Part shown: in pieces, positions 5,966-20,112 of the stretch
How positions within the stretch are numbered: the stretch's first letter is position 1
Layout: the number at the start of each line of letters is the position of its first letter
From: a virus
IMG/VR virus record: IMGVR_UViG_3300025430_001356
Location: 1 to 20,191 of that record
Strand: one strand, 5' to 3'
DNA length: 20,191 nucleotides
Position numbers and translations under genes: made by a program
Notes under the pieces: model-generated
The model's database searches: none
Told to the model about the DNA's origin: nothing
The model's input: the letters and a program-made list of their open reading frames with translations, nothing else

Positions 5966-7672
5966 TTACATATTTTGTATGATTAATTGCCATTTAATTT
6001 TACCACAGTCCCATATCCTATCGTAACCTAATTCTTGTAGGATTTGCCATTCTGTTTTGGATAGATCAATATTGGGATATGTGTGTTTCAGTTTGTATTT
6101 ACTGAGACTTAATTTGTGGTGTTTAATACTATAATTTTCTACATATTGTTGCATTGGTGGTACTGTTCCAATTTGCACAAATCCTAATTTTTTATACAAA
6201 TTTCCAACACTATATCTATTATCACTAAAGCTTGTAATAGATTGTGGATCGTATGTTTTAATAAAATGCGATAATAACCGCCCTGCACCGCCCGATATAA
6301 GATCTTTGGAAGCAAATCGTATTAATTCATAAGTCTTATCTGTTAATTTTATAAAACTCATTAAAGCTACTAATTCATTGTTGTATTCTAGTCCTACATT
6401 TACAGGTAACTTTGTAGGTGATCCCAATAGATGATATTCATTATAGAATTTTATAGACGCATCTCTAGCAATGATTTTAACACAACATTTTCTAGCTCCA
6501 ACTAAACGATTAGCAGATCCAAGTTTTGCTCTAAGTATATTTTGTACAATAGATCGTTGTGTTGTCCACTCATCGCTGAATATCGTAATAAGATCTATAC
6601 CAGCGTCTTTAGCAGCTTGCCACTTTCTGTGGTGATAATTCCAACTTTTTTTACCGCCTAGCTCGCTATGCCAATATAATCCGCAATACTCTATTCCAAG
6701 TTTTAGATCTGGAATATAAATGTCTATTTCGTATGGAGATATAACAGATCTATCTCCGCTAATTATTGGTAATGTTGTTTGAGATTTAACAAAATTTAAT
6801 AAATCTAATTCTTCCTTACTTTTAAAAGCTGTATCAGTTGGATGGCAAATCTTACATTTTGGGAGGGAAGCGTAGTCAAATCTTTTATTAAACATATAAC
6901 CACAAGAACAACACCTAAATGTTATGCGTGGGCGAGTCTGTACACCTATATACTGGTCTTTGGTTATAAGAGCATCTAAATCAAAATTTTCGCGGATCAT
7001 CTGAACAAACCGTTTATGATTTTGTTTTGCTAAATGGTGAGGTGTATATAAATGTTTCTTCGTTAGTTTAGACTTGTCAGCAATATGTGTTGATTGCATA
7101 GGATTTTCAAAACCATATTTTTCTAAATTAGTCTCTTTCTTTTTTTGTTGTATAAAATCTAATTTTGCAACGTTTATAACGCCATATTTTTCTAAAATAG
7201 TTGCTTGTTGTTTGTGTAATTGTTGGTTGATGTTTTCTTGTTGTGAATAAAATTTTTGATGAGCTGATTTAGCAGCAGAAGTTTGTCCTGCATTTACAAC
7301 TCCGTATTTTTTAAGATTTGTTTCTGAGCGTTTTAAATTTATAGCAGATTTTTCGTCAATACTTAATGTTTTTTTCGATTCTGCTACTTTTTTTGATATA
7401 GATTCTGCAATACATTTGCAATTTTTTGTATTACCACAAAACCCATAACCTTGGGTTAAACTTATAAATCTCTTTGATTTATTTGTAATCTCGCAACAAT
7501 TTGATTTGATGTTGTTTACAATTAAAAACGCTCTTTCGCTCAAAGATAGAGAATTATCTAAATGATTGGTTTTTAGATTTATCCATTCTGCTAATTCTTT
7601 GTCTTTTTTAATTTTACCGCCAACAGCCTTTGGGGAAGTATTGTCTATCAGATTAATCAAACGATGTAACAT
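5966..7672 (-). CDS. Vsr-like (EDxHD-type) homing endonuclease fused to GNAT-like domain
   Basis: The reading frame opens at GTG 7678, but ATG 7672 has AAGGA at 8 bases and is the better start (568 residues). Residue numbers here count from the GTG. There are DNA-binding-like KYG repeats (NLKKYGVVN 121-129, ILEKYGVIN 161-169, NLEKYGFEN 184-192). A zinc-ribbon pair follows (C256..C259 and C275..C278). The nuclease domain has SKEE at 287-290, EID at 317-319, IEYCGLYWHSE at 329-339, NYHHRKW at 347-353 and IFSDEW at 366-371. Glu289/290, Asp319, His349/350 and Asp369 fit the EDxHD pattern. Residues 395-520 resemble a GNAT acetyltransferase fold (GGAGRLL 463-469, NLYKKLGF 493-500). Such proteins are usually selfish homing enzymes cutting near conserved phage genes. 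The gene is strikingly AT-rich compared with gp23, fitting separate acquisition. Confidence 0.85.
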   Translation of the reverse strand: MLHRLINLIDNTSPKAVGGKIKKDKELAEWINLKTNHLDNSLSLSERAFLIVNNIKSNCCEITNKSKRFISLTQGYGFCGNTKNCKCIAESISKKVAESKKTLSIDEKSAINLKRSETNLKKYGVVNAGQTSAAKSAHQKFYSQQENINQQLHKQQATILEKYGVINVAKLDFIQQKKKETNLEKYGFENPMQSTHIADKSKLTKKHLYTPHHLAKQNHKRFVQMIRENFDLDALITKDQYIGVQTRPRITFRCCSCGYMFNKRFDYASLPKCKICHPTDTAFKSKEELDLLNFVKSQTTLPIISGDRSVISPYEIDIYIPDLKLGIEYCGLYWHSELGGKKSWNYHHRKWQAAKDAGIDLITIFSDEWTTQRSIVQNILRAKLGSANRLVGARKCCVKIIARDASIKFYNEYHLLGSPTKLPVNVGLEYNNELVALMSFIKLTDKTYELIRFASKDLISGGAGRLLSHFIKTYDPQSITSFSDNRYSVGNLYKKLGFVQIGTVPPMQQYVENYSIKHHKLSLSKYKLKHTYPNIDLSKTEWQILQELGYDRIWDCGKIKWQLIIQNM

Positions 7673-7680
7673 CTTCACGA

Positions 7681-8157: not shown

Positions 8158-9105
8158 TTATCTAGCTATCGCCTCAATATCATCAACAGTATTTGATATT
8201 AAATGATTTTCACAAACATACTCGTAAGCTGATTTGATATCAAAATCACTTCTATTAAACGTTCGTAATTGAAATATCAATTCAGCGTTTGTATTATATG
8301 TTTGGCCATAATCTTGCATTAAGTCGGCGCCAGCAATCTTACGTGCTATCCACGGAGTTTGATTAAGCATGGCTTCTAACAATACTAAGCCAAATCCTTC
8401 TTGGTAACTGTGCATTAATAAACAATCTGCATCATATATTGCAGACAGTAATTCGTCTCTGTTATTAAGCAGCATAGGTTTAACAAGATTTGATTCAGCT
8501 GGCATCAGATCCATACGATTGTCGTACCCTGTTGTAACTAAAGTTGCATTTACGGGATTGCATATTTCAAATGTGTTAGCAAGTTCACGCATTGCTTTAT
8601 TAGGCCAATATCCTCCACAGCTCAAAAACATTGTACCTTTTATACCATGTTTTTCTTTAAAGCCAGATGTCCCTACACAATTTTGCCAAGTAATACCATG
8701 TCTAACTGTTACAGCTTTACCAGTAACATTATATTTGTAACAGTGAACCCAGTCTTGACGTGTACTACACCCAATGTAATCGCAATCTTTCAAAGCTTGA
8801 ATACATACGTCACTTGTGCTAGGTAGTACTAATAGATACAATATAGGACTTGGTATGCGCACGGCATTTGACAACACAAAGTTCTGTACCGCAACATCGC
8901 CACCATGCACTATAATGAGGTCCCAGCTTGCACCGAGTATATTGGGATCACTTGATACTGTTACACCATTTAGATTGCCGGTATGTTCACCAGCAAATAC
9001 AGTAACAGTATGTCCACGTCGCAGACTCTCTTCCGCCATACCTTGCACATAAATCTCACTGCCGCCTGGGTATCCATATCTATGTACTACGTATAATAAT
9101 TTCAT
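8158..9105 (-). CDS. GT4-type glycosyltransferase
   Basis: A 315-residue GT-B fold enzyme of the family 4 type, which transfers a sugar from a nucleotide donor to a glycan. The N-terminus (MKLLYVVHRYGYPGGSEIYV) is the usual acceptor-domain start with the GG loop. FLSCGGYWPNKAM (162-174, numbered from the GTG two codons upstream) opens the donor domain. EGFGLVLLE (238-246) is the E-x7-E donor-binding motif. It is slightly shorter than typical members. ATG 9105 overlaps the preceding TGA (ATGA). GTG 9111 with GGAG at closer spacing is a possible alternative start. It is the last gene of the sugar cluster. The acceptor and sugar cannot be read from sequence. Confidence 0.88.
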   Translation of the reverse strand: MKLLYVVHRYGYPGGSEIYVQGMAEESLRRGHTVTVFAGEHTGNLNGVTVSSDPNILGASWDLIIVHGGDVAVQNFVLSNAVRIPSPILYLLVLPSTSDVCIQALKDCDYIGCSTRQDWVHCYKYNVTGKAVTVRHGITWQNCVGTSGFKEKHGIKGTMFLSCGGYWPNKAMRELANTFEICNPVNATLVTTGYDNRMDLMPAESNLVKPMLLNNRDELLSAIYDADCLLMHSYQEGFGLVLLEAMLNQTPWIARKIAGADLMQDYGQTYNTNAELIFQLRTFNRSDFDIKSAYEYVCENHLISNTVDDIEAIAR

Positions 9106-9815
9106 AGCCACTTAGTCTCCGATCTATCAATGTCATACCAAAAATTACCAACATCACCTATTCCAGACAACCCATTGATTCGTATTCCGGCATCTTGCCA
9201 TATTTTTGTTTGAATAATTTCGGGTATTCTAACTTGATGCAATAGTCCTTGAGAAGTCCATTCTTGTGCTTGTCCACGTATTTGCCAAAATGTTTCGTTA
9301 GCTTTGTCTATCAACCTCGGCGGTCCAAGGTAAAAATTATCAACCATTCTTGGCTTCGGTATATAATCGTCTATAATAGGATTATAACCTTGATTTGAGC
9401 ACAGAATAGCGTCGTCATTTAGTGATTGCTGGCACCTAGCAAAGTCTAATTTTTCAAAAAATATATTATCAGATCTTGCTTGTATAACAATATCATACGT
9501 AGTACCTTGCATCATTTCCCAGGTTTGTCGCAGTTGACTTACACGATAAAATTTATAACTCATAGGTGGCATATTTTTATGTACATTAAATGTAAACAAG
9601 TCGTCGAGGTAAGGTTTAATTATATTGTAATTCTCAATTTCAATTGATTTTGGTTTTAATGCTTGTCTATATGAATATAATGTTGCAAGATGTTCTGGTT
9701 GCCAAAAACTAAAAAATACATCTGGCTGCAACGGTTCAATTATCGCACCTATTAGACTAGATAAACTTGATTCTGTGAACCGTAATCTACCGCTAATTTG
9801 TAGAGCAATTTTCAC
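9102..9815 (-). CDS. Putative glycosyltransferase-like protein
   Basis: A 237-residue protein. It starts KIALQISGRLRFTE, a beginning common to a group of poorly characterised sugar-cluster proteins. A central segment YDIVIQARSDNIFF (108-121) resembles the aspartate-containing nucleotide-sugar site of GT-A-like enzymes of the type found in polysaccharide clusters. The later residues are Trp-rich and hydrophilic, with no membrane segment. The frame opens at GTG 9818, but GTG 9815 shares bases with the preceding TGA (GTGA), matching the overlap style of the cluster, and is preferred. Its place between a dehydratase and a GT4 gene supports a glycan role. The family is not firmly identified. Confidence 0.6.
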   Translation of the reverse strand: MKIALQISGRLRFTESSLSSLIGAIIEPLQPDVFFSFWQPEHLATLYSYRQALKPKSIEIENYNIIKPYLDDLFTFNVHKNMPPMSYKFYRVSQLRQTWEMMQGTTYDIVIQARSDNIFFEKLDFARCQQSLNDDAILCSNQGYNPIIDDYIPKPRMVDNFYLGPPRLIDKANETFWQIRGQAQEWTSQGLLHQVRIPEIIQTKIWQDAGIRINGLSGIGDVGNFWYDIDRSETKWL

Positions 9816-10762
9816 CACACAAACCTCTGGCTATGATACTCAATAATAGCAGGAAGTTCTTGATCAAAATTCTTTTGATTGCTCCAACCTAAGTTCCGTA
9901 GCTTGTCATCATTTATAGAATATCTTACATCTTGTCCTGGACGTTTAACACTAAAATCTGCATAGTTTTGATACAAATTAGGATCAAAGTTCATGCAACT
10001 TAATATTTTTTTAAAGATGTTTATATTACTATCTTCATAATTGCCTGATATATTATAAACGTCGTTAGCTGCATTGTTGCATAAAAGATACATTACAGCA
10101 TCTGCAGTATCTTGTGCATGCAACCATGTTCGCCGCGGAGTACCATTTTCATGAAGAGGTACACGCTTACCTAATGATAGGTACTGTATAGTTTTTGGAA
10201 TAAACTTTTCTATATATTGGCCAATTCCGTAATTATTACTTGGTCGTATAATTAAGTAAGGTATTCCATATGTTCTATGCCATGCCATTACTAGCATGTC
10301 TGCTGATGCTTTGGTAGCAGCATATGGATTACTAGGCCTCATTAATTGTGTTTCGTTGAAGCTGCCAGATTCTGTATCGCCATATACTTCGTCTGTGGAA
10401 AAATGAACCAACATAGGCATTTTAAAACGATGCTTAGTTTGTATCAAACGCAACAAATTGTGAACACCGTCAATATTACTACGGATAAATTCGTCACTGT
10501 TGGCAATGCTATTGTCTACATGAGTCTCGGCGCTGGTATTAATAATATAATCACAGTCATATAACATATTAAGATCGTTGATATTTTTAGACATAAACTT
10601 AAAGTTTTTGTATTGATTGAACTCGTCTAGTAATCCTATATTAGCAGCATATGTTTCGCAATCAACACCTAATACTTGCCATCCTTGCTCAAGGCATGTG
10701 CGGGTAACATACCCACCTATAAACCCTAAACATCCTGTTACATACACTACCTTTTTACTCAT
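9812..10762 (-). CDS. RmlB-like dTDP-glucose 4,6-dehydratase / extended SDR
   Basis: A 316-residue NAD-dependent short-chain dehydrogenase of the nucleotide-sugar type. TGCLGFIG (9-16) is the Rossmann dinucleotide loop. STDEVYGD (122-129) carries the Thr-Asp-Glu catalytic triplet characteristic of 4,6-dehydratases. Tyr147 and Lys151 (YAATK) are the SDR catalytic pair. RPSNNYGIGQYIEKFIPK (173-190) matches the RmlB substrate-binding block. Length is near the family's usual 320-350. Together these favour conversion of an NDP-hexose to its 4-keto-6-deoxy form, the first step to deoxysugars. No matching RmlA, RmlC or RmlD gene is in the window, so the donor would come from the host or from genes elsewhere. 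It overlaps the preceding gene by ATGA. Confidence 0.88.
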   Translation of the reverse strand: MSKKVVYVTGCLGFIGGYVTRTCLEQGWQVLGVDCETYAANIGLLDEFNQYKNFKFMSKNINDLNMLYDCDYIINTSAETHVDNSIANSDEFIRSNIDGVHNLLRLIQTKHRFKMPMLVHFSTDEVYGDTESGSFNETQLMRPSNPYAATKASADMLVMAWHRTYGIPYLIIRPSNNYGIGQYIEKFIPKTIQYLSLGKRVPLHENGTPRRTWLHAQDTADAVMYLLCNNAANDVYNISGNYEDSNINIFKKILSCMNFDPNLYQNYADFSVKRPGQDVRYSINDDKLRNLGWSNQKNFDQELPAIIEYHSQRFVW

Positions 10763-11241
10763 ATTTTTCTCGTGAGATTTAGATATGCAGGGGTGTTACT
10801 AAGGATAAAATTTGGCCAACATTCTTCTAGTTCTGGTATATCTTTTGGCCAATGAGGATCTATATTTGGCAATGCACGTAGAATTTCTGTGTCATCATGC
10901 GCCCAATGGCTTACACCATCATGAGAATAATCTTTATCACGACCGCTACCTATCAATTTGACCGGAATGTTTTCGTAATTAACATAATTACGTAATAGTT
11001 CAAATGGGCGATAGAGCAAAAAACTGCTCATGCTGTAACACACTGGAATTTTACCAGCTTCTGCAAGACCTATACCTGCACCTATCATAAGTTGTTCTGC
11101 CGCGCCAACATTCCAAAATCTGTCTAGATATGTATCTCGTATGCGATCTAAAAGACCAAACCCAAGATCAGCTGTGAGAACAACTATATTTTTGTTTTCT
11201 GCCATTGAATTAAACAGCAAATCTATACATTCTTTTCTCAT
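10759..11241 (-). CDS. Transketolase C-terminal (pyrimidine-binding) subunit, minimal
   Basis: A 160-residue protein equivalent to the pyrimidine-binding domain of transketolase-like thiamine diphosphate enzymes. FWNVGAAEQLMIGAGIGLAE (42-61) includes Glu49, the residue that activates the cofactor. SHDGVSHWAHDDTEILRALPNI (106-127) matches the conserved GPTHQP..D...LRA.PN region. Typical split C-subunits are about 300 residues because they carry a further C-terminal domain. That domain is absent here. It overlaps the N-subunit gene by ATGA, so the two are almost certainly made together as one enzyme. Likely role: two-carbon transfer to make an unusual sugar for the cluster. Confidence 0.85.
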   Translation of the reverse strand: MRKECIDLLFNSMAENKNIVVLTADLGFGLLDRIRDTYLDRFWNVGAAEQLMIGAGIGLAEAGKIPVCYSMSSFLLYRPFELLRNYVNYENIPVKLIGSGRDKDYSHDGVSHWAHDDTEILRALPNIDPHWPKDIPELEECWPNFILSNTPAYLNLTRKI

Positions 11242-11846
11242 AATGTTTGATAATCCTCTGGCTTCATTACATAGTAGTGCGTGAGAAGTCCTTTGGCAAA
11301 AGAAAATGATGTCGGCTCTGATATTCTAATATGAACACGTGGTAAAAATGACACTAATCTTTTTATCAAATAATCTACATCTAAATATTCGTATGCACTC
11401 ATTCCATTAATGTTTACATATACGTGCAAATTATCCAATTTTGATGTATGTATAAATCGCAAACTTTCCCAAATACTTCCTTCTGCTGCTTCACCGTCGC
11501 TTATCATGCAATAAACGTTTTTAGTTCGATCAGCTAGTGCATGCCCAACAGCAATTGGAAGGCCACTTCCCAAACTTCCAGTTGAACAATATAATTTGTT
11601 TTCTAAATCCTTGCTAGGATGTATACCATGCTTGTGAAGCAGCATCACAGGATCTATTCCGTAACGTGCTTCAAGTTCGCAATATAGCGCTAAACCTGCA
11701 TGTCCATTGCTGAGTATGAATACCTCGTCGTTGGTCTTTTTATTGTATATTTCGTGTATAATTGGCCATGCAGACAATACACTAGATAAATGACTGAGTT
11801 TTTCTTGATATGTTATATCTATTATTCTACGTTCTATTTGATGCAT
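11238..11846 (-). CDS. Transketolase N-terminal (ThDP-binding) subunit, minimal
   Basis: A 202-residue counterpart of the diphosphate-binding half of transketolase. LSNGHAGLALY (45-55) matches the LSKGHA block, and STGSLGSGLPIAVGHALA (88-105) the GSLGxGL..A.G.A block. SDGEAAEGSIWES (116-128) with Asn147 forms the cofactor-binding motif, though the usual leading Gly of GDG is Ser116. Family N-subunits are commonly near 270-280 residues; this one loses sequence after the cofactor motif. It begins 2 bases after the methyltransferase stop, with AAGGG upstream. Paired half-transketolases occur in bacterial polysaccharide and secondary-metabolite clusters, which fits its neighbours here. Whether the pair is active cannot be told from sequence. 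Confidence 0.85.
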   Translation of the reverse strand: MHQIERRIIDITYQEKLSHLSSVLSAWPIIHEIYNKKTNDEVFILSNGHAGLALYCELEARYGIDPVMLLHKHGIHPSKDLENKLYCSTGSLGSGLPIAVGHALADRTKNVYCMISDGEAAEGSIWESLRFIHTSKLDNLHVYVNINGMSAYEYLDVDYLIKRLVSFLPRVHIRISEPTSFSFAKGLLTHYYVMKPEDYQTL

Positions 11847-11848
11847 TG

Positions 11849-12562
11849 TTAACCCTTGTATGCATAAACGGCATCATATCGATGCTTAAATGCATTATAG
11901 CCATTATTGCGTAAGATTTGCATTATGTGATCTCTATTAAGATTTAAGCTGACTTCTGGATGTAAGGTTGAATCAGTAGCATGAACCTCTATGCTCCAGA
12001 CTTTTACGATATCTTTTACAGCTGATATAGTGTCGTGAGTGAGAGCGGCCATTTCTGATCCTTCTATATCACATTTAACAAAATCAACAGTATGCAGTCC
12101 TAATTCTGTGATAATAGAGTGTAATGTCTTACCTTGTACCATAGTTTTGGTACCGTAATGATTTACAGTACTATTCATAGTACTGTTTTCATCACTGATA
12201 TAAAATGCAATAGATTCATCTTTATTGTGCAATGCTGCATTTATTGGAAAAATGTTTGGATAATCTTTGGTCATTTCTTTTAATATTCCAAAATGACTAG
12301 GAGTGGGTTCAAGTGTGTAAACCACCTTGGCTCGATCATGTATATAGAGAGAGAATAAGCCAATATTGCCGCCAATGTCTAAGACTGTTAAATTGTCCCA
12401 ACCTTTGAAAAATTCATCATAAAATCTATCGTTATTAAACATGTCTAATACGACATCAGCATAATTAGCTGGATTTGCAAAATGATTAATGATACGAGAG
12501 TCGGTGGTATCTATAGTAACAATACCTTTTTTGGCTGTTATTAGCTGTCTTCGAAAAGTCAT
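11849..12562 (-). CDS. FkbM-family SAM-dependent methyltransferase
   Basis: A 237-residue Rossmann methyltransferase. VLDIGGNIGLFSLY (60-73) is the S-adenosylmethionine-binding motif I, TLEPTPSHFGIL (83-94) holds the acidic motif II residue Glu85, and VDFVKCDIEGSE (159-170) is the FkbM family signature. These enzymes are generally O-methyltransferases acting on sugars or polyketides. In this setting methylation of a glycan hydroxyl is likely, a common cap on terminal sugars. It overlaps the upstream SDR gene by ATGA. The length agrees with the family. Confidence 0.92.
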   Translation of the reverse strand: MTFRRQLITAKKGIVTIDTTDSRIINHFANPANYADVVLDMFNNDRFYDEFFKGWDNLTVLDIGGNIGLFSLYIHDRAKVVYTLEPTPSHFGILKEMTKDYPNIFPINAALHNKDESIAFYISDENSTMNSTVNHYGTKTMVQGKTLHSIITELGLHTVDFVKCDIEGSEMAALTHDTISAVKDIVKVWSIEVHATDSTLHPEVSLNLNRDHIMQILRNNGYNAFKHRYDAVYAYKG

Positions 12563-13392
12563 TCTGATTCCTTTTGGTAACTTGCAGTTGTTAGAAAATC
12601 GCCGACACCTGCTTCTAGATTATATACGCATTCAAATCCATATTCATTTTTGGCATATGTTGTATCACACTTCCATACTTCTGATTCAAAATTCTTAACC
12701 ATGCCCGCGATGTGAGTAACAGGGGCTGTACGACCAGTTATTTTGCTAAACATGTCCCAGACTTCTATGTTACTGTACTGTACTCCGGACCCAAAATTAA
12801 CAATATCGCCTAGTTTTTTGCTAGGCGAATTAACTAATAGATCAATGCCTCTAACAAAATCGTTGATATATATAAAATCGTGTTCGCCGTCAAATAACTT
12901 AATTGGCTGACCAAGTACAAACGCCTTCCATAATCTTGGAAAAAGTCGATGTGCTTTTTCATATTTGCCGTATACACTATAGGGTCTAACAATCTTTATA
13001 TCAAGACCAAATGTCCTTGCAGCACCCTGACAAAGTATTGTTGCCATACCTTTTGTGGTCTGATAAAAATCAACAGGATTGATTTTATCTGTTTCTGCGC
13101 TGGAACGCAGCATTGGCCCATATTCTGAACTTGATCCTATTTGTATCATCTTTTTGTTTGTGGTGCCTTTTAAATAGGTTACACATGTTGATGTGATATC
13201 TATGTTTGCTTGCCACATAAGGTTGGGATTATATATCTCAGCAGCACAGTTGATTATCAAATCTGGATCTGCTATCAACAAGGATTCAAACAACGGATCG
13301 CAGCGGTTGTATTCTATTACATTATGCTGTTGGTAATATTCTACTAAATTACGGCCAATGAACCCGGTGGCACCTGTAATAAAAATTTTCAT
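12559..13392 (-). CDS. NAD-dependent epimerase/dehydratase (extended SDR)
   Basis: A 277-residue nucleotide-sugar SDR. GATGFIG (7-13) is the dinucleotide loop, IINCAAE (46-52) a conserved strand, GSSSEYG (86-92) carries the catalytic Ser, and YQTTK (110-114) gives the Tyr/Lys pair. RPYSVYG (136-142) and FIYINDF (168-174) are typical of sugar epimerases, reductases and synthases. It is more compact than the RmlB-like enzyme and lacks the TDE triplet, so it is more likely a 4-epimerase, 4-reductase or GDP-sugar-type enzyme than a 4,6-dehydratase. The substrate is unknown. The ATG shares one base with the previous TAA (TAATG). Confidence 0.87.
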   Translation of the reverse strand: MKIFITGATGFIGRNLVEYYQQHNVIEYNRCDPLFESLLIADPDLIINCAAEIYNPNLMWQANIDITSTCVTYLKGTTNKKMIQIGSSSEYGPMLRSSAETDKINPVDFYQTTKGMATILCQGAARTFGLDIKIVRPYSVYGKYEKAHRLFPRLWKAFVLGQPIKLFDGEHDFIYINDFVRGIDLLVNSPSKKLGDIVNFGSGVQYSNIEVWDMFSKITGRTAPVTHIAGMVKNFESEVWKCDTTYAKNEYGFECVYNLEAGVGDFLTTASYQKESE

Positions 13393-13764: not shown

Positions 13765-14415
13765 TTAGGTAATAACTTCCGGAAGAATTTGATTAAACAA
13801 CGACATGCGAACATGCATAGGATGGTCGGGACAATGAATTAAAAAATCGCCTTTATACCATTGACCGCTAAATCCCATACCATCTAGATTGTTTTTAGCA
13901 CCTTTATTTTTATATAATGGATAATGGTATGCGTTCAAATATCGCTGAGGTACCACTTTAACAACATGCCTGTAATCCTTATATGATTCCATCATAACAC
14001 CTTGTTCAAAATAAGGGTGTCTACTATATTCTCTTTGTTTATCCATAATCATTTGCAACCAAGCTCTACCGTTGTCATCATTCCTGATCACGAAACTATC
14101 AGCCTGAATACCATTAAAATCTGTAGAAATTGTTACAGAAAATCCATCATATAAAAATTCTGTCAGAGGTATATGCCAATTGGTTATCATTGTATCAGTT
14201 CCGCTAAAATGCAGCACCTCGTAATCAGTATTTTTCATAATTTCAAGGCACCATGCTATTTTCTCCCAGCCTATGATAGGTTGAGTAAAATTACTGGTTT
14301 TAGCTAATGCACCGTAGCCGTGTTTTTGAGCATACAATGCACGATTTTTTGTCCAAGTTAAGGCTGCTAACGCTGCATAATTATCGTCATGTGTGGTAAC
14401 AACTGCACATTTCAT
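13765..14415 (-). CDS. GT34-like (GMA12/MNN10-type) glycosyltransferase
   Basis: A 216-residue protein from ATG 14415. The frame extends to 14442, but GGGGGA lies 6 bases before 14415 and the ATG overlaps the previous TGA (ATGA). Order of blocks: CAVVTTHDDNYAALA, YAQKHGYGAL, GWEKIAWCLEIMKNTDYEVL, FNGIQADSFVIRN, FEQGVMMES, VKVVPQRYLNAY and a final HCPDHP. This is the layout of the galactosyl/mannosyl transferase family GT34 (PF05637). The usual W-x-D-x-D metal site reads HFSGTDT here, so the first Asp is replaced while the second (Asp74 from this start) is kept. That may mean altered metal use or a divergent relative. The sugar specificity is unknown. Confidence 0.72.
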   Translation of the reverse strand: MKCAVVTTHDDNYAALAALTWTKNRALYAQKHGYGALAKTSNFTQPIIGWEKIAWCLEIMKNTDYEVLHFSGTDTMITNWHIPLTEFLYDGFSVTISTDFNGIQADSFVIRNDDNGRAWLQMIMDKQREYSRHPYFEQGVMMESYKDYRHVVKVVPQRYLNAYHYPLYKNKGAKNNLDGMGFSGQWYKGDFLIHCPDHPMHVRMSLFNQILPEVIT

Positions 14416-15578
14416 TTTGATTCCCCCGATGTTGTTTGCCATAGAATTAGATTTTTCTTTAGTTCTGAAATTTCAATTAAAGACGTAACATCACCGTTGA
14501 ATTCGTCTCTAACATAACTCCAGCTAGTGTTCATAGCAAAATAATGACCAAAATATATTTCAGATGTTTTAACATATGGACCGTATGTTTTATGCAGATG
14601 CCATTGATAGCCGAGATTTCGTTGAGGATTCAACATCCATTTCACACCAATACCACGACCGTCTCCATGTTGTGTATGCCAATAATTTAGAAATTTTCGA
14701 TCTTCAAATTTTATATCTTTAGCAATTACACCAGTTTTGCTGTCAATTGGTTCTATCCAAATTCCGTCATATATAAGGACTGAATGTTCTCCTGTTGAAC
14801 AATACTCTGCTACGCCATCAAGATTAGAATTTTTAATTACTAATAATTCATCAGTATCAGCATTTATTACTAATTTTGCGCAATATAAATATCGCCATTT
14901 AGCATGCTCTAACATAACGTATTGGCTAAAGTCGCTATCCCATGGGAGATAGGTACCACTTCTACCTTCCCATTCCCATAGTCCTCCGCCCATTACACCA
15001 AATGGTACATCGTAATCAACAACTTTGATCACCATGTCATCTCTCACCAGCTGTTGTTCGAGTAGCTCTGATGTGTAGATTGTGCTGCGATTATTATAAA
15101 GCAATAGTCCTTCAACATTATGTACAGTTTTGTGGTAATCTATCCATTGTTTTAACCAAGAAACTGGGTGATCTTTACTAATAGTTACGATTACCTTTTT
15201 GTTGGCAAATTCTTCATTTGGGTAATTTACTTTGATAACATACGTTCCATATGGTGTTTTTAAAAATAATTCTTGGATCCAGTCATGTGTAGTTAATCTC
15301 ATAACGCACGCTCTATCCATTTCGCTGTATTCCCAACTAATCTGACGACCAATGTTGTCTATGAAAATACAATTCTCATTAATCCATGATGCTGTTGCAT
15401 ATAATGGTGGGCCAACCAACAACAATGTGTCTTTTTGCACTTGTATAGCGTCATTCCAAATTGTATCATAATCATAATTACTATCAAAATTCAACACCCT
15501 GAGCTGCTGTGGTCTAACAGGCTCTCTCTTTTGGTTCCATTCGCGTGGATATATAAATCGGCTAAGGATCTCAGGCAT
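14412..15578 (-). CDS. GT2/GT92-like glycosyltransferase (GT-A fold)
   Basis: A 388-residue protein. The N-terminal 125 residues match nothing I recognise. From 128 the sequence reads KVIVTISKDHPVSWLKQWIDYH (127-149), the KNE..LxEWxxYH start of DUF23/GT92- and Glyco_tranf_2_4-type enzymes. VEGLLLYNN (155-163) follows. INADTDELLV (238-247) is the D-x-D-E nucleotide-sugar site (Asp241, Asp243). FEDRKFLNYW and GIGVKWMLNP follow later. The first start ATG overlaps the previous gene by 8 bases. The likely function is sugar transfer within the phage glycan pathway. The extra N-terminal region may bind the acceptor. Confidence 0.75.
   Translation of the reverse strand: MPEILSRFIYPREWNQKREPVRPQQLRVLNFDSNYDYDTIWNDAIQVQKDTLLLVGPPLYATASWINENCIFIDNIGRQISWEYSEMDRACVMRLTTHDWIQELFLKTPYGTYVIKVNYPNEEFANKKVIVTISKDHPVSWLKQWIDYHKTVHNVEGLLLYNNRSTIYTSELLEQQLVRDDMVIKVVDYDVPFGVMGGGLWEWEGRSGTYLPWDSDFSQYVMLEHAKWRYLYCAKLVINADTDELLVIKNSNLDGVAEYCSTGEHSVLIYDGIWIEPIDSKTGVIAKDIKFEDRKFLNYWHTQHGDGRGIGVKWMLNPQRNLGYQWHLHKTYGPYVKTSEIYFGHYFAMNTSWSYVRDEFNGDVTSLIEISELKKNLILWQTTSGESK
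14422..14427 (-). promoter_or_regulatory. Ribosome binding site deciding the GT34-like start
   Basis: GGGGGA on the - strand is 6 bases upstream of ATG 14415 and inside the end of the preceding gene. It supports the internal ATG over the longer frame beginning at 14442. Confidence 0.55.
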
Positions 15579-16557
15579 CAGCTATTCCATATTTTGTTTT
15601 AAGGTGTCGCATTATCATATGATATGTCATTTCATTTGTAACATCGTCGTTAAACGGGTTTTCTCCCTGCCAACGAAATTTCATTATATTACGATGATTA
15701 AAAAGCTCTTTGCCTGCACGATCTCGTTGTACCATTACGGTACCTCCCCCATATTTGTGCCAGGGATTTTGTACGCCTTTGTGAAACGGTCCGTATGGCA
15801 TCATTCCGTATGGAACTTGGTCACTAGCATGATAATTAAATCTAGCATGGTATCCTCCAGTTTTGCCGGCAACGTATTGCCAGGCCATCCGCCAACATTC
15901 TGCATCACCTCCAAAACTATAATAAATTTCGCAGTTTTCAGTAAAATGCAGCATTAGACTAAGCTGTTTCCAGACTACTGGTTTGTTTAGTAAGAATTGT
16001 CCGCTCTCAAATGGTTCTGCATCATTTGGTTCTATATCAAATACTTGCCATAACTGACCATTGTCATGATACTGATTTGCTCTATCTATACTATAAACGT
16101 CTCTCCAAAACAAACTTCCCTTTGCTGTATATTCTGCATCATCAAATAAATCGAGACAATTTCTAATAGGAAAATTGTCGCCGTCAATCCAAAGATTCTC
16201 TGCATATGCACTTTCTATAACAGCGTGAACCTTTGTACTCCAACCCTTGTTATTACCCCAACGATCCTGATAATCTTTAGCATTAGCTTTAATTTGCTTA
16301 AATTCTATATGTCCTGGCCAACAAGCAGATAACTCATTAATTTCACTTTCATTTAGCTCGCCGGCTCTGTAAAATACTTCAATTGGAATATTAAATTCGT
16401 ACCTTTGTAGTTCTTTTAAAAGAATAAACATTCCTGGAATTTCTGTACGATAACAACTTGTTACGATGCTTCTGCCTGGTAAATATTGCGGCATTGGAAC
16501 AGATGATCTAAGGACATAATCTTTGGCTTGATGTATCTTATCTAAATTAATTTCCAT
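15571..16557 (-). CDS. Mannosyltransferase-like glycosyltransferase (PF11051/MNN1-type)
   Basis: A 328-residue GT-A-type protein. IVTSCYRTE (31-39) opens the domain. KVHAVIESAYAENLWIDGDNFPIRN (109-133) contains the D-x-D metal site Asp125/Asp127 in the context typical of alpha-mannosyltransferases of the MNN1 type (LLLDADNVPLRD). GSLFWRD (147-153) and ESGQFLLNK (184-192) are further family signatures. This family is best known from fungi but is also seen in viruses and bacteria. Its ATG shares one base with the previous TAA. Donor and acceptor are unknown; mannose is only the family association. Confidence 0.8.
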   Translation of the reverse strand: MEINLDKIHQAKDYVLRSSVPMPQYLPGRSIVTSCYRTEIPGMFILLKELQRYEFNIPIEVFYRAGELNESEINELSACWPGHIEFKQIKANAKDYQDRWGNNKGWSTKVHAVIESAYAENLWIDGDNFPIRNCLDLFDDAEYTAKGSLFWRDVYSIDRANQYHDNGQLWQVFDIEPNDAEPFESGQFLLNKPVVWKQLSLMLHFTENCEIYYSFGGDAECWRMAWQYVAGKTGGYHARFNYHASDQVPYGMMPYGPFHKGVQNPWHKYGGGTVMVQRDRAGKELFNHRNIMKFRWQGENPFNDDVTNEMTYHMIMRHLKTKYGIADA

Positions 16558-17420: not shown

Positions 17421-17450
17421 ATTATATCACACAGCAGTTAAATGTTGCAA
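17421..17450 (-). promoter_or_regulatory. Possible sigma-70-type promoter before the sugar genes
   Basis: On the - strand TTGCAA (17445-17450) and TATAAT (17421-17426) are separated by 18 bases. Nine bases separate the -10 from the ATG at 17411, so the transcript would be leaderless or nearly so. It overlaps the end of the nucleotidyltransferase gene. A chance match is possible. Confidence 0.3.
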
Positions 17451-18205
17451 TTAATACCTAATGGTTGTGCCACACCTATGTTGCACATCATACTGAAAAT
17501 CTTTTTAGAATTTTTTGCTGATAATAGACTTGACAATAATAATTTGGTTCTCTCTTCGTCTTTTACAGCAGTTATCTTGTCTGCATTACGTTGATTCAAC
17601 TCTTTGTCGTTGTTTATCCATTTAGGTTGATCAAAATAAGCAAGTGCCTTAAACCATCTTAGTATTGTAAATGGATCATTATCAATTTTTTCTTGAGCAT
17701 TTGGACAATACTTTATCAAACTGCGAGCCAAATCTGCTTGTCCATTTTGATAATCATATAGATTGCCATCCATATCAACACTCATACTGTTGATAGTTAA
17801 ATCTCGTCTAAAGCTATCAAATTTCCAGCTATCGGTTCTATCAATTTTAATCTTACTATTAACTACCGTCATCTTGTAACTAATACTAGTGACATCTATT
17901 TTTTCGTTGCCAAACACGGCTTTTATTGTTCCGTGTTGTATGCCTTTGGCATCATAATCAATACCTTCCAAATCGAAAATAAAAATTAATTCTGCTGGCT
18001 CTGCATCGGTAGCAAAGTCAACATCCCTTGGTAATTTTCCAAGTAAAAAATCTCGAACAGCTCCTCCTACTACCCTTATATCAAACCCATACTTTCTAAT
18101 AGTTTCGATAGTTTTCCGTATATCTTTGGTAAAAACCTTACTAAAGGTATCCATATCAACTGAATTTTCTATCTCAAACAGATTTTTTATATTTGTTGTA
18201 ATCAT
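17438..18205 (-). CDS. CCA-adding enzyme / poly(A) polymerase head domain protein, short
   Basis: A 255-residue class II nucleotidyltransferase. From ATG 18205: VVGGAVRDFLLGKLPRDVDFAT (45-66) holds the GG..R motif and the metal-binding carboxylates Asp61 and Asp63, IDVTS holds the third (Asp104), RRDLTINSM (134-142) is the ribose-discriminating RRD motif, and NDPFTILRWFKALAYF matches the DPxRxLRxxRFA block. The usual bacterial enzymes are near 400 residues, so the body and tail domains are reduced. No HD domain is present. It would add CCA or A residues to RNA 3' ends, for tRNA repair or RNA tailing. The frame opens at TTG 18220, but ATG 18205 overlaps the gp15 TGA as ATGA and is preferred. 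No tRNA gene is visible in the window. Confidence 0.88.
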   Translation of the reverse strand: MITTNIKNLFEIENSVDMDTFSKVFTKDIRKTIETIRKYGFDIRVVGGAVRDFLLGKLPRDVDFATDAEPAELIFIFDLEGIDYDAKGIQHGTIKAVFGNEKIDVTSISYKMTVVNSKIKIDRTDSWKFDSFRRDLTINSMSVDMDGNLYDYQNGQADLARSLIKYCPNAQEKIDNDPFTILRWFKALAYFDQPKWINNDKELNQRNADKITAVKDEERTKLLLSSLLSAKNSKKIFSMMCNIGVAQPLGINCNI

Positions 18206-20112
18206 AGGGCTATTGTCCAAAAACCTGGTTTATATTCAGTGTCAACTACTGGTGACCAAAAACCGTCGTTCCAAACATACATGCGATTTGAATTAAGATT
18301 CAACACACGTTGCGATGTATTACCATTAGTTAATGAGTTAAAAGTAACTATCCAATTGTTGCCATCAAATGTTACAATATCGTTAGCAGTTGATCTAGAA
18401 TAAAAATTAACAGTTGAATAATTGCTACTGGTTGCAGTTAAATTACTTTGCAGCGGGTCATTCTGATTGACTATGTTAAGTGTTGTATTAACAACATCTA
18501 AAACAATTGTTCCATTTGGTATACCATTACTACTACTAGTTACAAGTTGTCCTGATCGTATAGTTTGATTATTTGCACTTAATTGTATAGTTGTTTGATT
18601 TTCGTACCATTTACCTTGTTGAGTTGTTATAGGTGCAGACAACTCTAGGTTAAAATTGCCCCATGCCTGACTAGTAATAGGTAAACTTTCCGTTAACAAA
18701 TAACGTTGATTATCTGCTGCTGCTGGCAAATTTATACCTGGGCCAGTCGTAGTTGGATCTATAATTGCATTAATTGGTGGTAATGTAGATGACGGAAAAC
18801 TTTCTGAATCCGCTATCCAATAAAGGATATTTTGATCTGTAGGATGTATTTCAATCCAACCTACTAGATCGGAATTAGTTTGAGTTAAATCGTCAACTGT
18901 CTTAAGTCGTATTTGACTAGCATTTGCACCATATTGGCTATAAGGTTTAATTGTGCCGTATAGTTGCAAAAGTTTCCACCACGCTAGGTTGCCTCCTGGG
19001 TAAGTTGTTGCGGTTAAACCTAACGCTGCTAACGATCCTGGCACAACATCTGCAAATGTGTTGTTACCGCCAGTTGTGTTAATGAATTGCATGCTGTTAA
19101 TGTTATAAACTGTACAATTTAGCTTGGTGCCACTGAGAAAGCTTTTTATATCTGCTACAACGTCTGATATTTCAGTATGTGATATAGTGATTTGTATTTC
19201 ATTCCATAGAAATACCATTCCCACAAAAGGTTCTAGATACGGCGCAGCAAATGTTACAGTTGGACTATGTGTAGGGTCTGCTGGAGATCCGTTATCTCCG
19301 CATAAACTCAATGCATATGTAGTAGGGTTAACTCCTGTGACTCGAATGATAGCCTCTCCGGGAGTTGTTATGGTACGGGCCAAGAATTCGTATTCGGTCC
19401 ATTCCATTGCATTGGGAGATTTTGAACCTTCTATAATGTTAGTGATAATTTCCTCAATTAGAACCTGTTTTTTGACTTTAGCAGGTGGATTGATCCATAT
19501 TGGAAATTTAAACTGAATAGTTGCAACATCGATTGGATTATCGGTGCCAATTGGTATACTTCTTGAGCTCCAATTGATATTCTGTTGCATTTCTATATAA
19601 GATAACACTGTCCAATCTATTGGATTGTTCGATGTTTGTATATTCAGTGTTGGATTATACAACACCATTATTTGTTCAAGTAACTGTTCTTTAATATCTT
19701 CGTTGTTGGTCCATATATCAACTTGCATAGTCACATCGTATGGAACAGGCATGTACATATCAACTGTATATCTATTGCCAACTTGGTTAGTATATTGTTG
19801 AGCCTGCTGGTCATATAAACGTTCGTTTACCTGCACAGATCTCGAATATGACGGGTCTTGTCTACGACTGGCATCCATAACAAGACTGCTAATATAACAG
19901 GTAATGAACGGTACTGTTAGTACCTTGTTCTCACTATTACCTCGTACTACCGTGGCGGCTACTCGAGAAGGATCGCCATACCGACATGGTACTTTTAACA
20001 ACTCTTCTGTGTTATTAGGTCCTCCGCGACCAGTTTTAACAGAAAACCCACTAAATGCTCTGATAAACTGTAATCGATACTGTCGTATTTGAGCGGAGAA
20101 CCAATATTGCAT
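18202..20112 (-). CDS. 15: gp15-like tail sheath stabiliser with long C-terminal extension
   Basis: A 636-residue protein. Its first 225 residues follow T4 gp15, the terminator protein that caps tail tube and sheath: YWFSAQIRQYRLQFIRAFSG (3-22), VPCRYGDPSR (41-50), VLTVPFITCYISSL (64-77), YTVDMYMPVPYDVTMQVDIW (115-134), NNEDIKEQLLEQIMVLYNP (136-154), DVATIQFKFPIWINPP (195-210). The same order exists in T4 gp15 (IKMIYELSIFTRYEDDMFQIVEQ, LTFEVNGWMYPP). T4 gp15 is 272 residues. Here about 410 further residues follow, rich in Ser, Thr, Asn and Val, probably beta-rich, ending VWNDGFWSPVVDTEYKPGFW. The function of the extension is unknown. AAGAAGG precedes the ATG. It heads the - strand gene string, away from the head genes. 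Confidence 0.82.
   Translation of the reverse strand: MQYWFSAQIRQYRLQFIRAFSGFSVKTGRGGPNNTEELLKVPCRYGDPSRVAATVVRGNSENKVLTVPFITCYISSLVMDASRRQDPSYSRSVQVNERLYDQQAQQYTNQVGNRYTVDMYMPVPYDVTMQVDIWTNNEDIKEQLLEQIMVLYNPTLNIQTSNNPIDWTVLSYIEMQQNINWSSRSIPIGTDNPIDVATIQFKFPIWINPPAKVKKQVLIEEIITNIIEGSKSPNAMEWTEYEFLARTITTPGEAIIRVTGVNPTTYALSLCGDNGSPADPTHSPTVTFAAPYLEPFVGMVFLWNEIQITISHTEISDVVADIKSFLSGTKLNCTVYNINSMQFINTTGGNNTFADVVPGSLAALGLTATTYPGGNLAWWKLLQLYGTIKPYSQYGANASQIRLKTVDDLTQTNSDLVGWIEIHPTDQNILYWIADSESFPSSTLPPINAIIDPTTTGPGINLPAAADNQRYLLTESLPITSQAWGNFNLELSAPITTQQGKWYENQTTIQLSANNQTIRSGQLVTSSSNGIPNGTIVLDVVNTTLNIVNQNDPLQSNLTATSSNYSTVNFYSRSTANDIVTFDGNNWIVTFNSLTNGNTSQRVLNLNSNRMYVWNDGFWSPVVDTEYKPGFWTIAL

Follow-up and report, generated by a model that had tools for sequence, protein, structure and literature searches.

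A T4-like phage encodes a split transketolase reduced to two short chains. Its assignment as a two-chain ThDP enzyme of the transketolase type, lacking the C-terminal (TKC) domain and placed in nucleotide-sugar pathways, is well supported, as is the view that the gene pair is no decaying remnant but real, selected and widely distributed in viruses. The pair very probably works as an active ketol transferase within a pathway for nucleotide sugars; that its two chains add a two-carbon unit to a keto-sugar nucleotide for a phage-specified glycan is about an even call. We infer the complex, the cofactor, the donor, the acceptor and the product alike. The window, by which we mean the whole stretch of DNA analysed, corresponds to a 20,191-base virus record in IMG/VR. 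Its source is a T4-like phage, because a major head protein, a head maturation protease and a T4 gp15 tail sheath stabiliser are encoded in the same 20 kb, and the initial annotation was right to call the pair phage-encoded. The pair and its neighbours are as follows.

8158–9111, minus strand: GT4-type glycosyltransferase (Pfam Glyco_trans_1_4, 3e-9)
9812–10762, minus strand: dTDP-glucose 4,6-dehydratase-like SDR with TDEVYG and YxxTK motifs, directly downstream of TK-C and overlapping it by 4 bp
10759–11241, minus strand: TK-C, 160 aa, predicted pyrimidine-binding (PYR) subunit with the predicted catalytic Glu49 (Pfam Transket_pyr)
11238–11241, minus strand: ATGA stop/start overlap of TK-N and TK-C, 4 bp, coupling both genes
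11238–11846, minus strand: TK-N, 202 aa, predicted ThDP/metal-binding (PP) subunit (Pfam Transketolase_N)
11849–12562, minus strand: FkbM-family methyltransferase (TIGR01444, 8e-20, above cut-off)
12559–13392, minus strand: second SDR with SSSEYG and YxxTK motifs (Pfam Epimerase, 7e-32)
13765–14442, minus strand: GT34-like glycosyltransferase (Pfam Glyco_transf_34, 7e-14)
15571–16557, minus strand: putative mannosyltransferase-like glycosyltransferase (Pfam Mannosyl_trans3, 2e-16)

The initial annotation had read two overlapping genes of 202 and 160 residues as the ThDP-binding and pyrimidine-binding halves of a transketolase of about 360 residues whose third, C-terminal domain is missing, and each of these points held. 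Pfam matched Transketolase_N to residues 38-150 of TK-N (E=4e-7) and Transket_pyr to residues 8-159 of TK-C (E=6e-17), with no Transketolase_C match in either; the same domains were found in 26 of 26 TK-N relatives and 26 of 26 TK-C relatives, respectively. TK-C stops where, in the solved split transketolase, the PYR domain (residues 1-162) gives way to TKC. TK-N is also internally shortened, having lost a beta-alpha unit together with the DGH loop and KGKG segment that this unit bears; even so, the His of its last invariant pair, His190-Tyr191, lines up with the active-site His that normally lies close to the domain's end. PHROGs held no family for TK-N and none for TK-C. The NCBIfam transketolase equivalogs, with cut-offs of 488-788 bits, were not reached (best 79.7 bits for TK-N and 50.7 for TK-C), the dxs cut-off of 465.95 bits was missed widely (33.7 bits for TK-C, 14.5 for TK-N), and every short-pair protein that we compared with NCBIfam stayed well short of the transketolase equivalog cut-offs.

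We ran AlphaFold2 on purpose-built alignments, modelling each chain singly. The TK-N model (pLDDT 91.8) best matched chain AAA, the N chain, of PDB 6yak (TMq 0.81), and the TK-C model (pLDDT 88.8), in which the acceptor loop at residues 101-120 has low confidence, best matched 6yaj (TMq 0.85-0.87). Structure prediction had been proposed as a check, and for single chains both folds match chains of the solved split transketolase, that of Carboxydothermus hydrogenoformans (PDB 6yak/6yaj, PMC7661550). Like the phage pair, this enzyme has separate PP and PYR chains; it is the best solved match to both phage subunits in sequence and fold, and it has the same Glu, Asp, Asn and His residues. However, residues 164-312 of its PYR chain form a C-terminal domain that TK-C lacks, and its PP chain is about 80 aa longer than TK-N, reads GDG and is of the central-metabolism type. 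In the phage enzyme, the active site would lie where one PP chain meets one PYR chain, presumably within an alpha2beta2 complex, and there Glu49 of TK-C would activate ThDP while Asp117, Asn147, Gly118, Glu119 and His49 of TK-N would hold the metal and the diphosphate.

In the solved enzyme, ThDP and metal are bound by His70, Asp148, Gly149, Glu150 and Asn178 of the N chain and by Glu55 and Phe80 of the C chain (PMC7661550). Sequence alignments equate these with His49, Asp117, Gly118, Glu119 and Asn147 of TK-N and with Glu49 and Phe74 of TK-C. Columns tallied over the first 43 intact pairs were invariant in TK-N at His19, Asn47-Gly48-His49, His76-Pro77, Gly90-Ser91-Leu92-Gly93 (GSLG 90-93), Ser116-Asp117-Gly118-Glu119 (SDGE 116-119), Asn145, Asn147 and His190-Tyr191; a 26-member alignment of TK-C was invariant at Arg2, Glu49, Phe74, Arg101, Asp104, His112 and Arg158. 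The observation that Glu49 and Asn147 remain in the window thus extends to the relatives, in which a loss of the catalytic Glu had been one outcome to look for, and the catalytic Glu, the metal ligands and the His residues are unchanged down to 44% identity. His76-Pro77 we take to be the GHP motif of transketolases, a contact of hydroxylated donors. Arg2 and Arg158 of TK-C align with arginines at both ends of the PYR domain of a full-length transketolase. Against our main reading, the diphosphate-contact lysines are missing or replaced: Lys68 of the solved split enzyme, two before His49, is Asn47 in TK-N, and the KGKG Lys is gone.

The metal motif opens with SDG (residues 116-118) in place of GDG, as the initial annotation had pointed out. 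SDG is invariant in the 43 distinct intact pairs and present in every virus member, in cellular short members (with L151 set aside) and in several long or ordinary split transketolases that have the C-terminal domain. Because it is present in such ordinary split enzymes, and because activity is known for a CDG variant from a different ThDP family (PMC12247030), SDG is no mark of inactivity, and we reject the equation of SDG with a dead enzyme.

Scans of IMG/VR with the single proteins gave 38 and 32 loci, and profile scans gave 380 and 377 encoding contigs (about 380 per half), the matches listed being the best 80 of each. We collected 43 distinct intact pairs and later 80 distinct viral loci, with nearly the same two lengths in the same order. 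Similar short pairs in other phages had been named as something to search for, and frameshifts in all relatives as something that would weigh against an enzyme; the former exist in 80 loci, and the pairs are intact. A truncation specific to the window is rejected, since 80 viral loci carry the short pair, and its recurrence is far beyond chance. The N chain mostly measures 199-232 aa and the C chain 156-184 aa across viral loci, and the few values outside these ranges may come from start codons having been chosen mechanically. The 4-bp overlap was seen in 50 of the 77 scorable viral loci and an 11-bp overlap in 11. Over unsaturated pairs, median dN/dS was 0.14 (N) and 0.16 (C). Distances in N and C correlate (r=0.86), as expected of partners, though linkage alone contributes too; FkbM and C correlate about as well (0.87). 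Among the 50,697 GenBank phage records searched, from which close neighbours of the window may be missing, we recognised no short pair. There, an annotated Acinetobacter record holds an ordinary bacterial split transketolase (283+334 aa) and two human-gut contigs that we opened hold full-length C chains (313-337 aa); these records look like bacterial DNA.

The short SDG family forms one clade (SH-aLRT 100), in which virus and MAG-contig members are nested among or beside cellular short pairs, and which is shared with a few Omnitrophota and Patescibacteria. Cellular relatives are scarce: a single, pattern-based scan of 84,980 genomes found 21, a count that includes long forms and probable viral contigs. 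By open-frame length, short forms occur in 3 of 287 sampled genomes of the Pacebacteria (the phylum of L085) and 3 of 193 sampled from the Omnitrophota (that of L083), and several bacteria with the short pair also hold a separate full-size split transketolase. Two cellular pairs look broken: the N half at L140:742-1466 is spread over two ORFs, and the C half at L151:1504-1992 has an in-frame stop, so that L151, a long form, was set aside as a short cellular member.

A scan with long split transketolases added at least 240 further viral contigs (range L233-L312), some of them TKC-less elsewhere on the tree, namely a GDG group, with N halves of about 245 aa and C halves of about 160 aa, and a small group with SDG. 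A single origin of the TKC-less state was rejected: the tree, built without a full-length outgroup, needs at least three changes, which count losses and gains of TKC alike. PF02780 was absent from 14 large contigs of the short-pair group, of up to 357 kb, in a search that was positive in 14 of 14 control genomes, and it was absent from 12 contigs of the other TKC-less viral groups. A third domain encoded elsewhere in the phage is rejected on these 14+12 contigs, whose records are possibly incomplete. The L233-L312 viral enzymes, long or separately TKC-less, also lie beside SDR, kinase and glycan genes. By eye, L302:363-1485 holds a second, different short ThDP-like pair just upstream of the transketolase pair; its downstream ORF resembles a PYR domain, and its neighbours are radical-SAM-like.

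The neighbourhood of the pair points to sugar nucleotides. The ORF at 9812-10762 scored 277.5 bits (1e-82) with TIGR01181, under the cut-off of 365 though full length, and matched dTDP-glucose 4,6-dehydratases in the PDB to 3e-59; we predict that it is the source of a 4-keto-6-deoxy sugar nucleotide. The ORF at 12559-13392, whose closest solved relatives are sugar epimerases and 4,6-dehydratases, is predicted to be the reductase or epimerase of the pathway, and the FkbM-family enzyme (11849-12562) is predicted to O-methylate the sugar. The usual viral order is GT34, SDR, methyltransferase, TK-N, TK-C, 4,6-dehydratase, and in most viral loci an SDR like that at 12559-13392 lies on the upstream side. 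Same-strand SDRs lie within 5 kb of the pair in 76 of 80 viral loci (two SDRs in 60 of 80), same-strand methyltransferases occur in 65 of 80, and the 4,6-dehydratase motif was present in 68 of 97 loci. Short pairs in cells are flanked by SDR or methyltransferase genes on one side and, in most of those read, by a GT2 gene on the other. An RfbH-like gene is near the pair in 11 of 80 viral loci. All three such genes tested (in L126, L010 and L077) passed the RfbH NF011936 cut-off of 423 bits, at 428, 437 and 702 bits; a PAHH...GEGG motif, with His replacing the PLP Lys, is present in 15 of 16 such neighbours, and the closest solved relatives are CDP-4-keto-6-deoxyglucose-3-dehydrases. Close to the pair, operons of the window's type lack genes for an isomerase, a kinase or a nucleotidyltransferase. 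In a marine-type sister clade, a KdsC-like phosphatase, a PfkB-like kinase and a nucleotidyltransferase-RpiB fusion lie directly upstream of the pair. The sugar nucleotidyltransferase fused to RpiB was seen at L066:8145-9353, whose relatives are L060-L068 and L076. We read the L066-type upstream genes as a compact viral module leading from a ketose phosphate to an NDP-sugar.

We tentatively propose, while rating it as somewhat doubtful in its full detail, that the virus-dominated TKC-less clade moves a hydroxyacetyl group onto the 4-keto position of a nucleotide 6-deoxy or 3,6-dideoxy sugar, yielding a two-carbon-branched sugar for phage-directed glycans. A ketose phosphate of the host, or hydroxypyruvate, would donate the two-carbon ketol, and the enzyme would place it on a carbonyl acceptor within the nucleotide-sugar pathway. 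For the window's clade the most economical proposal is that the adjacent 4,6-dehydratase supplies an NDP-4-keto-6-deoxyhexose whose ketone is the acceptor, and the product would be a 4-C-glycoloyl sugar. The second SDR would reduce this sugar and the FkbM enzyme methylate it, after which the glycosyltransferases would attach it to a phage-specified glycan on the virion or the host surface. We favour ketone branching because of the adjacent ketone-making dehydratase, the association with RfbH, His76, and the fact that no genes for activating sugar phosphates lie next to the pair in the window. A ketone as transketolase acceptor has been proposed for miharamycin and amipurimycin, and never demonstrated (PMC12247030).

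The genes of the marine-type clade fit an aldehyde acceptor better than a keto-sugar. On that account the enzyme would still be an active ketol transferase, but its product would be an unusual ketose phosphate; isomerisation, phosphorylation and nucleotide activation would follow, and the neighbouring SDRs would act after these steps. The KdsC-like phosphatase, PfkB-like kinase and nucleotidyltransferase-RpiB are a set that would turn a ketose phosphate into an NDP-aldose. The classical acceptors of transketolases are aldehydes. We nevertheless think this account rather unlikely, given that the window's operon lacks this set and has a ketone-making 4,6-dehydratase directly downstream, and that an RfbH gene adjoins the pair in several relatives. 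Improbable, too, is a pyruvate-using acyl transferase with the donor chemistry of DXS, PDH-E1 or YerE, which would add an acetyl branch. TK-C does match DXS profiles, and its invariant Arg101 aligns with the DXS Arg that precedes the DGxTH motif, yet His76-Pro77 is invariant and the best structural match of both chains is a split transketolase. Acetyl branches on 4-keto sugars are known biology, with a precedent in YerE (PMC12247030), but the characterised split transketolase does not accept pyruvate (PMC7661550).

Viral tktA and tktB have been reported as abundant or transcribed and widely interpreted as pentose-phosphate or carbon-fixation auxiliary genes (PMC12783922, PMC13390420, PMC12615777). 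Together with its transketolase ancestry, this would cast the pair as an ordinary auxiliary metabolic gene, one that raises the central metabolism of the host by way of the pentose-phosphate pathway or Calvin cycle. We give this little credence: glycan and nucleotide-sugar genes surround the pair in nearly all loci, several short-pair bacteria already have their own full-size split transketolase, and the NCBIfam equivalog scores are far too low. The gene context argues for a role of this family other than such an auxiliary one. The initial annotation had left the choice between an enzyme making a rare sugar and an inactive derivative. The operon makes the rare-sugar role plausible, whereas the invariance of the catalytic residues, the purifying selection and the constant pairing of the genes all speak against the inactive alternative. 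SDG for GDG and the loss of the diphosphate-contact lysines and the third domain could be expected of an inactive or regulatory protein, but we regard one as very improbable, in view of a catalytic Glu, metal ligands and His residues that are invariant down to 44% identity, the low dN/dS, and SDG in full-size split enzymes.

Several known systems share parts of this logic. The split-gene transketolases of miharamycin and amipurimycin, which we liken to the phage pair by description, are proposed to branch ketones and lie in streptomycete antibiotic clusters (PMC12247030). The YerE/YerF branch of yersiniose A has in common with the phage loci the use of a 4,6-dehydratase, a ThDP enzyme, a reductase and a 4-keto sugar nucleotide; the RfbH-type 3-dehydrase of that pathway is matched only in some relatives of the phage pair. 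The L126 locus, in the order RfbH, TK-N, TK-C, FkbM, SDR, 4,6-dehydratase, resembles the yersiniose A gene set, with TK-N and TK-C standing in for YerE. However, YerE is a pyruvate-using member of the decarboxylase superfamily, and among 12 viral contigs, RfbH-bearing ones included, none carried a gene of the YerE class (PF02776); we propose that the pair works in a YerE-like way, not that it belongs with YerE. DXS has a PYR domain similar to TK-C, including an Arg at the position of Arg101, but unlike the phage pair it is a single chain with a TKC domain and a pyruvate donor.

At about 360 residues the pair would rank among the smallest transketolase-type enzymes, and it would offer a natural test of the purpose of the C-terminal domain. 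It is also a concrete candidate for the branching of sugars at ketones by transketolases, an open proposal in the literature. Our results suggest that some virome 'tktA/tktB' genes counted towards the pentose-phosphate pathway or carbon fixation are glycan-biosynthesis enzymes, and members of the short-pair family could be among the viral tktA/tktB already reported (PMC12783922, PMC13390420, PMC12615777).

Two further genes of the window deserve mention. The one at 5966-7678 (minus strand), adjoining the major head gene, encodes a 570-aa protein of DUF7487 that weakly matches REase_MTES_1575 and is possibly a homing-endonuclease-like insertion. At 17438-18220 (minus strand), flanked by the glycan genes on one side and the gp15-like gene on the other, a nucleotidyltransferase with a PolyA_pol head domain (E 2e-27) is encoded.
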